From a bacterium (GTDB lineage: Bacteria > Patescibacteriota > Minisyncoccia > Phycocordibacterales > UBA2100): a stretch of DNA of 51,901 nucleotides. Below, one piece after another: positions 4,720-33,013 of this stretch. The stretch is from contig JAUSJH010000021.1 in the NCBI GenBank assembly GCA_030647655.1, forward strand, positions 1 to 51,901. Direction: 5' to 3'. Under the pieces are notes generated by a model that was given only the letters and a program-made list of their open reading frames with translations, made no database searches and was not told the DNA's origin. Within the stretch, counting starts at the first letter, position 1. Every line of letters begins with the position of its first letter. A program made the translations under genes and the position numbers.

Positions 4720-4746
4720 ATCCAAGAGGCGTCACCTCTTGGATTT
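4720..4746. repeat. REP-like palindrome at the 3' end of the RAYT gene
   Basis: ATCCAAGAGG-CGTCA-CCTCTTGGAT; RAYT stop codon lies in the loop. Confidence 0.85.
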
Positions 4747-5427
4747 GAACTCGCGGTTGAGGTCGGCGTAATAGTCGCGCATTTCAGCGAGCACCACGGA
4801 AAATCGCGGAAGACGGTCTATCAAGACGCTTCGTGCCGATTCATCCAGAATACCTCGCTCTATTCGCTCGATATCGCTTGCGTAGTCGGGGAAACTGGAA
4901 AATGGATACTGCGCGAGTTTTCGCTGAAGCGCAACCAGATTGGACACCTTACCGCGCTTCCACGAATGCTCGAATATTTCTACGGCATTAAGATGGATAT
5001 ATTGAGCAACTCGGTATAGGTATGTGTCGGTTGATACGTGCTTTGAACGAAACGGCTTCACGAAGATGTTGCCGACGCGGCCATGTTTTTCGTTGAAATA
5101 CATGCTGTATCCAGTGCCAACTTTCTGCATGAATCTCGATATGCCATCATCCTCGATCTCTTGAATAAGGAGATGGTAGTGATTCCTCATCAAACTATAT
5201 GCGCCAATCGCGACTATGGGACGTGTCCGGGGCATTCGAAGGATATCTTCATGTTTCCGGTGATAAAAGTTTTCACGCCGAATGGGCTCACTATCATTAG
5301 CCAGATAAAGTAACTCGGTGAATCGCTCCGCATCACGTTCATCCGTGAAGACAATACGCTTGTCTATGCCACGGGAGTAGCAGTGATACCACTCATCGGG
5401 CGCGAACGGTACTCGCCTGTACCCCAT
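4732..5427 (-). mobile_element. REP-associated tyrosine transposase (RAYT, IS200-like Y1 transposase domain)
   Basis: MGYRRVPFAPDEWYHCYSRGIDKRIVFTDERDAERFTELL...IVAIGAYSLMRNHYHLLIQE; HYH-type HUH motif; flanked by matching palindromes. Confidence 0.93.
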
Positions 5428-5444
5428 TACTCCAGCCTAGCACA

Positions 5445-5472
5445 AATCCAAGAGGTGACGCCTCTTGGATTC
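5445..5472. repeat. REP-like palindrome upstream of RAYT
   Basis: AATCCAAGAGG-TGACG-CCTCTTGGATT, inverted copy of the 4720-4746 palindrome. Confidence 0.85.
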
Positions 5473-18746: not shown

Positions 18747-18813
18747 AAAAACAAGAAGCGTAGCGACTATGTTTTTCTCGATGCAGCAGTACTCTGCGGC
18801 GCCAAAAATTAGT
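18747..18813 (+). repeat. Post-tRNA hairpin element, copy A
   Basis: AAAAACA-AGAAGCGTAGCGACTA-TGTTTTT followed by GATGC...GGCGCCAAAAATTAGT; matches the element at 21785-21881. Confidence 0.6.
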
Positions 18814-19405: not shown

Positions 19406-19441
19406 TCTGTTTTGAAGTTCTCTATCGGGCCGCCGGGAATC

Positions 19442-19461
19442 CCTGCCTGCCGGCAGGCAGG
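19442..19461. repeat. 20-bp perfect palindrome CCTGCCTGCCGGCAGGCAGG
   Basis: Splits a T-loop (GGGAATC|...|GAACCCGG); same core as 47262-47281. Confidence 0.85.
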
Positions 19462-19524
19462 GAACCCGGTCTCTACCCGCTTCGCGGCCGCAGGATGCTA
19501 CGCACATCCGGAGAAGCTCTTTTT

Positions 19525-19595: not shown

Positions 19596-19807
19596 AAAAA
19601 AGAGCTTCTCCCCAAAGCGCATGCCGTAAGGTACCGGTATACTACGGCCCGATAGAGAACTTCACCTTGTGGTCACAACTCTCGCTCGCTTCCGCTCGCT
19701 CGGTCGCGACCCCGCCTCACGGTCGCTCGCGTCCTCTACGCTCGCGACATCGTTCCGGCTTGCACAGCCGCACTCAATTTGCCGAAGGGCAAATCTCGTG
19801 TCGGCTG

Positions 19808-21570: not shown

Positions 21571-21641
21571 GGGCCTATAGTTCAGCGGTAGAACGCGTCC
21601 ATGGCATGGACGAGGTCGGGGTCCGACTCCCCGTAGGTCCA
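21571..21641 (+). tRNA. tRNA-Ala(GGC)
   Basis: GGGCCTA...CGTCC-ATGGCAT-GGACG...CGGGG-TCCGACT-CCCCG-TAGGTCC; G3:U70 pair; C at T-loop position 55. Confidence 0.9.
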
Positions 21642-21647
21642 ATAGGT

Positions 21648-21681
21648 CAGAAAATGCCGGATTAATTTCCGGCTTTTTCTG
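21648..21681 (+). terminator. Terminator-like hairpin after tRNA-Ala
   Basis: CAGAAAatGCCGGattaatttCCGGCttTTTCTG. Confidence 0.75.
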
Positions 21682-21695
21682 TACCTTACCATGCA

Positions 21696-21782
21696 GGGGA
21701 GTCGGACCGCGGGCCGCAGGCGTCGACGAGACGCTGAAGGTTTCGAGCACAGCAGTGCGAGAGGCGACTCCCCGTAGGTCCA
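21696..21782 (+). repeat. tRNA-tail-mimicking structured element, copy 1 (after tRNA-Ala)
   Basis: Antisense T-arm GGGGAGTCGGACC, core GCGGGCCGCAGG...GAAGGTTTCGAGC...GAGAGG, then CGACTCCCCGTAGGTCCA identical to the tRNA 3' end. Confidence 0.8.
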
Positions 21783-21784
21783 CA

Positions 21785-21881
21785 GAAATAAGGAGCGAAG
21801 CGACTATATTTCGTAGGATGCCGTGCGGAGACACGACGCCACAAAATTAGTATGCCGTGCGAATACGCGGCGCTACAGAAT
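21785..21881 (+). repeat. Post-tRNA hairpin element, copy B, plus tandem ATGCCGTGC...ACAGAAT units
   Basis: GAAATA-AGGAGCGAAGCGACTA-TATTTC; 21818-21847 and 21852-21881 near-identical hairpin units. Confidence 0.65.
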
Positions 21882-32271: not shown

Positions 32272-32343
32272 GGCTCCATCGTCTAACGGTTAGGACGGAA
32301 GCTTCTCAAGCTTCAAATCGGGGTTCGATTCCCCGTGGAGTCA
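32272..32343 (+). tRNA. tRNA-Glu(CTC)
   Basis: GGCTCCATCGTCTAACGGTTAGGAC...GAAGC-TTCTCAA-GCTTC...CGGGG-TTCGATT-CCCCG-TGGAGTC. Confidence 0.95.
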
Positions 32344-32371
32344 AAATTTTGGCGCAGCCGAATATTTGGCC

Positions 32372-33013
32372 CTACAGCGAAGTGATACACTTCGCGTGGG
32401 GAATTGAACCGCGGGCCGCAGGGCTCGAAGAGAGCCCGAAGGTTTCGAGCGTGCCAACGCGAGAGGCGATTCCCCGTGGAGTCACAATGTAGAATTTCGG
32501 CAGGAGTGAGCGAAAAACTCCCGCGCGCATAAGCTCAAACGCTCCCAACAAGGAAGCGGTGTAAACGATGTCGCCCGTGAGCATATTGCGTAGAAATGGA
32601 ATACCGAGTTCGTACGAATACAAAAGACCGAAAATACTCTTTTCGTACCACGGCGAGAAAAGCCACACCGCGGCATTTGTAATAAGGAAGAAAAATAGTG
32701 ATGACGCAATGACCGAAAGAAAGACAGGGAGAACTCCGCTATATTTCCTACTCATCCAGCTCCAGCATCCGATGAGGGCAAAAGAGCCGTACACGCTCGC
32801 CATGATTTTCCAATCATAAAAACCGATGAACATATCTGACAAGAACAGCGCACAGAGAGGAAGAAGCATAGACCATCGCTTGCCGAGATAGATGCTGCCC
32901 GCGAAAGCAATCGCGGTTATAGGCGTCGCGTTGGGGAGATGCGGCAGTAAACGTACCATGATGCCAAAGCAAACGAGCGCACCCGCCGCGAGCAAGATGT
33001 GGTTGCGCCGCAT
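32372..33013 (-). CDS. DUF6580/ECF-type substrate-binding membrane protein
   Basis: LLPHLPNATPITAIAFAGSIYLGKRWSMLLPLCALFLSDMFIGFYDW; C-terminal tail read out of the tRNA-tail element. Confidence 0.8.
   Translation of the reverse strand: MRRNHILLAAGALVCFGIMVRLLPHLPNATPITAIAFAGSIYLGKRWSMLLPLCALFLSDMFIGFYDWKIMASVYGSFALIGCWSWMSRKYSGVLPVFLSVIASSLFFFLITNAAVWLFSPWYEKSIFGLLYSYELGIPFLRNMLTGDIVYTASLLGAFELMRAGVFRSLLPKFYIVTPRGIASRVGTLETFGLSSSPAARGSIPHAKCITSL
32398..32484 (+). repeat. tRNA-tail-mimicking structured element, copy 2 (after tRNA-Glu)
   Basis: GGGGAATTGAACC, core GCGGGCCGCAGG...GAAGGTTTCGAGC...GAGAGG, then CGATTCCCCGTGGAGTCA identical to the tRNA-Glu 3' end. Confidence 0.8.

Follow-up and report, generated by a model that had tools for sequence, protein, structure and literature searches.

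A tRNA gene of an ultra-small bacterium is followed here by an element whose ends are copied from the adjoining tRNA, unlike the product of ordinary integration, which raises the question of how such an insert is made. In the window (the whole stretch of 51,901 nucleotides that was analysed), an intact tRNA-Glu(ctc) gene, called by ARAGORN and Rfam, occupies 32272–32343 of the + strand. Its last 18 nt, CGATTCCCCGTGGAGTCA (32326–32343, S1), recur 141 bp further on at 32467–32484 (S2). Between the two copies, all on the + strand, are a spacer (32344–32397) in which sequence and fold indicate a hairpin, GCGAAGTG/CACTTCGC at 32378–32396, in the slot held by a terminator hairpin in other copies; an antisense copy of the host T-arm, GGGGAATTGAACC (S′, 32398–32410), forming the 5′ strand of stem P1; and a 56-nt core, GCGGGCC...GAGAGG (32411–32466), recognised by covariation and model hits, with stems P3 (32421–32437) and P4 (32445–32464). 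The T-arm part of S2 is the 3′ strand of P1. A sister copy, also on the + strand, follows tRNA-Ala(ggc) (21571–21641; S1, 21624–21641) and consists of a spacer (21642–21695) with a terminator-like hairpin, AGAAAATGCCGGA/TCCGGCTTTTTCT (about 21649–21680), S′ GGGGAGTCGGACC (21696–21708), a perfect antisense match to the host T-arm, down to the unusual C55 of that arm, a core (21709–21764) and S2 (21765–21782).

The module (S′, core and S2) spans 32398–32484 at tRNA-Glu and 21696–21782 at tRNA-Ala. As a preliminary description of this DNA had stated, the tRNA 3′ end and its duplicate are 141 bp apart at both genes (32343 to 32484 and 21641 to 21782), the Glu module begins 54 bp past the tRNA, and the two modules align without gaps (67 of 87 columns identical), with common constant blocks and with variable blocks that differ by base-paired exchanges. 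The module is 87 nt long, not 88 as was given there, and while its end blocks do track the host tRNA, GGGGAATTGAACC falls one base short of an exact T-arm antisense (GGGGAATCGAACC), and this difference gives a T.G wobble in the stem. The equal 141-bp lengths turn out to be ordinary, and we rejected them as a meaningful constant, because tRNA-to-module distances in the family are mostly 46–68 bp (1–97 bp in 67 of 70 copies). The genome that contains the window (G000; 0.9 Mb, 21 contigs, 41 tRNA matches) has copies or decayed copies behind eight tRNA genes (Glu, Ala, Gln, Leu(gag), Asn, Ser(cga), Arg(gcg) and Arg(tct)), with two units in a row at Ser(cga).

The element belongs to a family that is patchily distributed. 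A covariance-model search, which the preliminary description had suggested, found carriers in 19 of 397 genomes of the same order; it reached E = 7.6e-25 in other genomes, the best of which were in the training set, and E = 7.1e-22 for new copies. A pattern search of 60 relatives gave five carriers, and a pattern scan of one genome per species across 85,462 species gave 56 stretches, nearly all from Paceibacteria (Kaiser-, Nomura-, Harrison-, Lipton- and Niyogibacteria); the viral contigs scanned had no match. One stretch labelled Gracilibacteria (L129) has the sequence of L021 from this order, and we took it as a naming difference rather than an outlier. A same-strand tRNA was recognised upstream of 70 of the 81 distinct copies, and the family follows 26 tRNA species. 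The other 11 include several behind tRNA-Asn-like 3′ ends that ARAGORN does not call, one that is the later of two units in a row, one close to the end of a contig, and L097 (Gemmatimonadetes), which has no tRNA and was rejected as a chance match. The tRNA-Asn-like 3′ halves (L034, L106, L121, L151) possibly represent a tRNA-Asn split by a group I intron that also bears a module; some are preceded by TATAGTCC-like sequence. Cores are about 56–112 nt and inserts about 100–250 bp long, and tandem units occur, such as three 100-bp units behind tRNA-Leu at L150.

Chance similarity is ruled out by the composite pattern read backwards, which had no match, by the model E-values and by the loss of pairing when partners are slid (see below). 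The host tRNAs in the collection all have G52-G53 before the T-loop, a uniformity biased in the wider set by the collecting pattern, which demands [TC]G[AG]ACC, so that arms tracking an A52 tRNA would be missed; the A52 tRNAs of G000, read by eye without the pattern filter, have no module. No new loci emerged when the core's 3′ half was used to look for a larger version that carries genes. Rfam returned only tRNAs above threshold and nothing credible at E up to 10. We found no description of the family in the open-access literature, and it is apparently undescribed, a provisional statement since most subscription journals fell outside the search.

Comparison with relatives shows that the insertion parts a tRNA from its former downstream DNA. 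In G035 and G024, tRNA-Ala(ggc) is followed directly by AGAAAYAAGRAG..., which is the sequence downstream of S2 in the window. These loci are empty sites, so that S2 and the DNA beyond it are old, and S1, spacer, S′ and core are new. Since the flank after S2 consists of a repeated hairpin, what carries the argument is that this flank comes right after tRNA-Ala in both relatives. At tRNA-Trp in G018, the second 3′-end copy is followed by CCAG, as in the module-free genome G003. The tRNA stays intact because its 3′ end stands on both sides of the insert; in between come first a hairpin or terminator, next the tRNA 3′ end in antisense, and finally the core. Patchy spread (19/397 genomes), the 26 tRNA species and the tandem units are signs of mobility.

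The repeated hairpin of the flank, AAGNAGCNNAGCGACTATNTTT plus a GC-rich hairpin, is present at 18753–18774 and 21790–21811 (+) of the window, close behind tRNA-Ala(cgc) and close behind the S2 at tRNA-Ala(ggc); in G035 and G024 it likewise trails tRNA-Ala, and its loop motif recurs within type II cores. Elsewhere in the window, between tRNA-Pro(cgg) and tRNA-Pro(ggg), there is a broken tRNA-Pro 3′ end (19420–19520, −) whose T-loop region holds the palindrome CCTGCCTGCCGGCAGGCAGG, with another tRNA-Pro-like fragment near 19620–19655.

At the level of sequence, the arms are shown to belong to the host tRNA and the core is shown not to. The base opposite T-loop position 59 agrees with the host in 66 of 66 copies (36% with other hosts), and positions 63, 64 and 65 agree in 67, 52 and 47% of these copies (32, 25 and 33% with other hosts). 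Selection for P1 pairing could by itself keep the match at position 59. It is insufficient for the arms, because at sites where S2 departs from the host S′ is still host-like in 73 of 154 cases (43.5 ± 4.7 expected with other hosts), and because in L021 and L119 the antisense copy, 23 nt long, extends to the tRNA 3′ end though S2 is truncated. S′ is a copy, and more than a compensated stem. The same 73 of 154 sites uphold the earlier argument that att-site integration leaves the antisense part unexplained: integration with fixed ends fails to account for arms in which S′ keeps a host match that S2 has lost. That the host tRNA is copied at both ends, with no fixed ends, was likewise borne out copy after copy. 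When end blocks were checked against their own host tRNA there were just two partial exceptions, L005 and L011, which match it only in part and count against our preferred explanation.

Cores cluster by genome (p = 0.018) and not by tRNA (p = 0.64), on which ground we rejected isotype-specific element lineages. The Arg(gcg) and Arg(tct) cores of G000 are identical at 108 of 112 positions, with unrelated spacers and arms that match their own hosts, and the Tyr and Trp cores of G018 (55/56 identical) stand behind different tRNAs. In Liptonbacteria, the Ile and Tyr copies share both cores (56/56) and spacers (48/54). Such near-identical cores of one genome each bear the arms of their own host. 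The duplicated acceptor half of S2 decays freely, and in many copies the acceptor-side host matches are gone, while the T-arm stem and the core persist.

The spacer has a regular geometry. A terminator-like hairpin lies between tRNA and module in 39 of 58 spacers, and one is often also found after S2. Over the 46 spacers whose hairpin is good, the distance from tRNA end to hairpin start has a median of 1 nt, and the arm beyond the hairpin is about as long as the stretch of tRNA that runs from G52 to the 3′ end; the asymmetry between the two has a median of −1 nt, with quartiles of −3 and +3.75. In L144 and L122 a palindrome with small interruptions spans T-arm, tRNA end and hairpin; in four copies (G018-Tyr, L113, L116 and L149) the direct repeat extends past the tRNA into the start of the terminator. 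The left half of the insert is folded back, symmetrically in length, about the terminator hairpin. The simplest history would have the tRNA 3′ end and half of its terminator mirrored at that hairpin, and the product linked to the core at the T-loop. In L015, L052 and L144, S2 is broken by small hairpins such as GAATYAGCARATTC.

The module folds by pairing of S′ with the 3′ half of the second T-arm (P1), while the core contributes a constant GCC/GGU helix, P3 and P4. Covariation is extensive: in nine copies, 28 cells changed on both sides (8.6 in shuffles), and in 51 distinct copies both-side changes numbered 241 (76.5 in shuffles), with pairing in 94.4% of cells as against 36–45% when partners were slid by 1–3 columns, although the 51-copy alignment leans towards the structure because it was fitted to the covariance model. 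G.U makes up 2.2% of P3/P4 pairs, compared with 5.5% in acceptor stems, and among P3/P4 mismatches G.T (13) outnumbers A.C (4). P1 carries a constant AA bulge on one side, P2 has an almost invariant G.U, and the module also contains tandem G.A motifs, internal loops and a variable tip. A second core type has the common frame CGAACCGNNGG[hairpin]TYTCGA[small hairpin]GAGAGGCGA. Small inserts can be nested: the cores of L043, L045, L046 and L049 have an extra hairpin, CTCCCGATTTTC...GAAAATCGCAGTCC, ahead of P3, which is common to the Ser and Arg copies of G000 and has a similar counterpart in G360.

The explanation that we favour, at roughly even odds, is a small non-autonomous hairpin cassette that inserts at the T-loop and duplicates the tRNA 3′ end, its inverted arm arising by fold-back DNA synthesis. 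Beyond the insertion, the arm copying and the fold-back geometry, we infer the steps as follows. The insert would be made through DNA, with a nascent strand copying the tRNA 3′ end into the terminator, folding back at the terminator hairpin and copying itself as far as the T-loop to give S′. It would then switch to a core template via the shared T-loop word TCGAACC, and return via CGANTCC to the tRNA 3′ end and the old flank; the same shared words would let the core be copied between tRNAs. Later template switching between the inverted arms would keep the T-arm stem matched, and selection would continue to act on P1 and the core in their folded form, most likely as single-stranded DNA that mobility requires. 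Template switching during DNA replication has a known capacity to form perfect stems and to repair them (PMC8794818). It would cover the fold-back, the way in which arms track the host and the low share of G.U, and leaves unexplained the repeated arrival of the same core at the same point; so precise a choice of the T-loop points to an enzyme more than to template switching without guidance, and a putative enzyme recognising the hairpin is likely. Also weighing against the favoured explanation are the loss of acceptor-side matches in many copies, the match at position 59, which pairing selection alone could keep, and the spacer shared by the Liptonbacteria Ile and Tyr copies, which moved or was homogenised with the core, so that the spacer is not always new. 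More tentatively, and with somewhat less than an even chance, dedicated folded single-stranded cassettes may target tRNA T-loops in general and copy the target for their own arms, with a putative recombinase or transposase recognising the core hairpin. If so, one core could colonise any tRNA harmlessly.

None of three helper candidates (PF00589, PF00078 and PF01797) correlates with presence of the family. PF00589 is represented mostly by one strong Xer-like gene per genome in carriers and non-carriers alike, with a second in G000; these proteins are mostly of the housekeeping Xer type in appearance. RVT_1 (PF00078) had no match in the carriers G000, G360, G050 and G040. Y1_Tnp (PF01797) was not detected in the carriers G040, G094, G102, G380, G386 and G415, which are draft genomes. 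The window itself has a Y1_Tnp (RAYT-like) gene at about 4733–5470 (−), with its PF01797 match at 4993–5244, flanked on both sides by the hairpin ATCCAAGAGG...CCTCTTGGAT; it is possibly a single-copy transposase with its own hairpins.

Two other readings deserve some weight, both of them unlikely. The module could be an attC-like site whose target is the T-loop, mobilised as a geneless circular cassette (S1-terminator-S′-core) by a tyrosine recombinase such as the housekeeping Xer. The tandem arrays fit this, as do a folded stem that mirrors the target duplex, with its constant one-sided AA bulge and variable tip (attC sites bear extrahelical bases, to which the bulge may be compared; PMC2727003), and the presence of one strong PF00589 protein in nearly every genome. 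However, no dedicated integrase lies alongside the elements, a circle that brought the 3′ end of one tRNA into a second tRNA would disrupt the latter whereas cores span isotypes with arms of their own hosts, and S2 lacks the T-loop TT, so that a GTTRRRY-type box is absent. Marginally less probable still is a gene for a structured small RNA, transcribed to use or regulate the adjoining tRNA, in which the structure is kept for RNA function and the arms match through duplication of the tRNA tail. Very strong covariation, the almost invariant G.U of P2, the tandem G.A motifs, the restriction to one strand, the excess of G.T over A.C in P3/P4, and the terminator-like hairpin often found past S2 would suit such a gene. 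Yet a terminator-like hairpin usually parts the module from the tRNA promoter and leaves little room for another, the acceptor half of S2 decays, the spread is patchy with no tie to a single tRNA, G.U pairs are less frequent than those in tRNA stems, Rfam gave no match, and template switching can itself yield compensated stems (PMC8794818). The particular form proposed in the preliminary description, an RNA acting as a mimic or competitor of the tRNA tail, is unsupported because the acceptor half decays while the T-arm stem and core persist, and because a terminator-like hairpin intervenes in 39 of 58 spacers.

Copying by a reverse transcriptase, with self-primed copying of a terminated pre-tRNA giving S′ and template jumping adding the core, is very improbable. 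The fold-back does start at the terminator and stop at the T-loop, whose modified bases are common sites of reverse-transcriptase stops. But templating by reverse transcription, also raised in the preliminary description, goes unsupported because RVT_1 has no match in four carrier genomes, among them G000 with about nine copies. We give an equally small chance to a remnant of a conventional tRNA-targeted integrative element with phage or satellite att sites: a duplicated tRNA 3′ end together with an empty site is what integration at tRNAs typically shows, but members of one core family stand behind 26 tRNA species with inverted arms specific to the host, neither cargo nor an integrase was seen, and viral contigs had no match. 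A TnpB-type guide RNA was rejected, since S2 as a guide would cover S2 and not S′, and the acceptor half of S2 decays.

Among known systems, attC sites are closest in shape to the module, while box sequences, cassette genes and fixed arms disagree. Integron attC sites and cassette arrays share with it an imperfect hairpin, an asymmetric bulge, a variable tip, head-to-tail units and a target-like stem, and the AA bulge of P1, the internal loops and the variable tip answer to the extrahelical bases and unpaired spacer of attC, a resemblance of shape only. The R″/R′ box consensus of attC is RYYYAAC ... GTTRRRY; here, S′ ends in TCGAACC and S2 starts with GG-CGANTCC without GTT in the collected copies, a feature that the collecting pattern favours and with which the covariance-model matches agree. 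The PF00589 matches, mostly one Xer-like gene per genome, gave no clear integron integrase, no attI or cassette genes were seen, and the targets are tRNA T-loops, with host-specific arms. MITEs, REP/REPIN and palindromic dispersed elements are similarly small, non-coding, hairpin-forming, non-autonomous and dispersed, but their termini are fixed and borne by the element whereas the inverted arms here are copied from the target, and they are associated with a Y1/RAYT transposase whereas Y1_Tnp went undetected in six draft genomes of carriers. Group I introns in tRNA genes are also small structured inserts that recognise tRNA sequence by pairing; in contrast to these, the module lies in duplicated DNA past an intact tRNA and matches no Rfam model.

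Quasi-palindrome template-switch mutations likewise create and repair inverted copies of local sequence, and template switching can create and maintain perfect stems (PMC8794818), but such switching alone does not carry a conserved core to one and the same place in many tRNA genes. Covarying, seemingly functional RNA structure may arise and persist at the DNA level, which calls for caution in covariation-based RNA discovery. For Paceibacteria, the family adds a spreading element of about 100 bp with a testable mechanism. Phages, ICEs and satellites that target tRNA genes also restore the tRNA 3′ end, with a direct repeat as the result, and the module has both this repeat and an empty site; those elements differ in having integrases, att sites fixed for one tRNA and no antisense copy, while integrase, cargo and fixed att were not found here. 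Mobile elements at tRNA genes normally carry ends fixed for one tRNA, whereas a conserved core behind 26 tRNA species, with arms made from the host, implies DNA insertion templated by the target.
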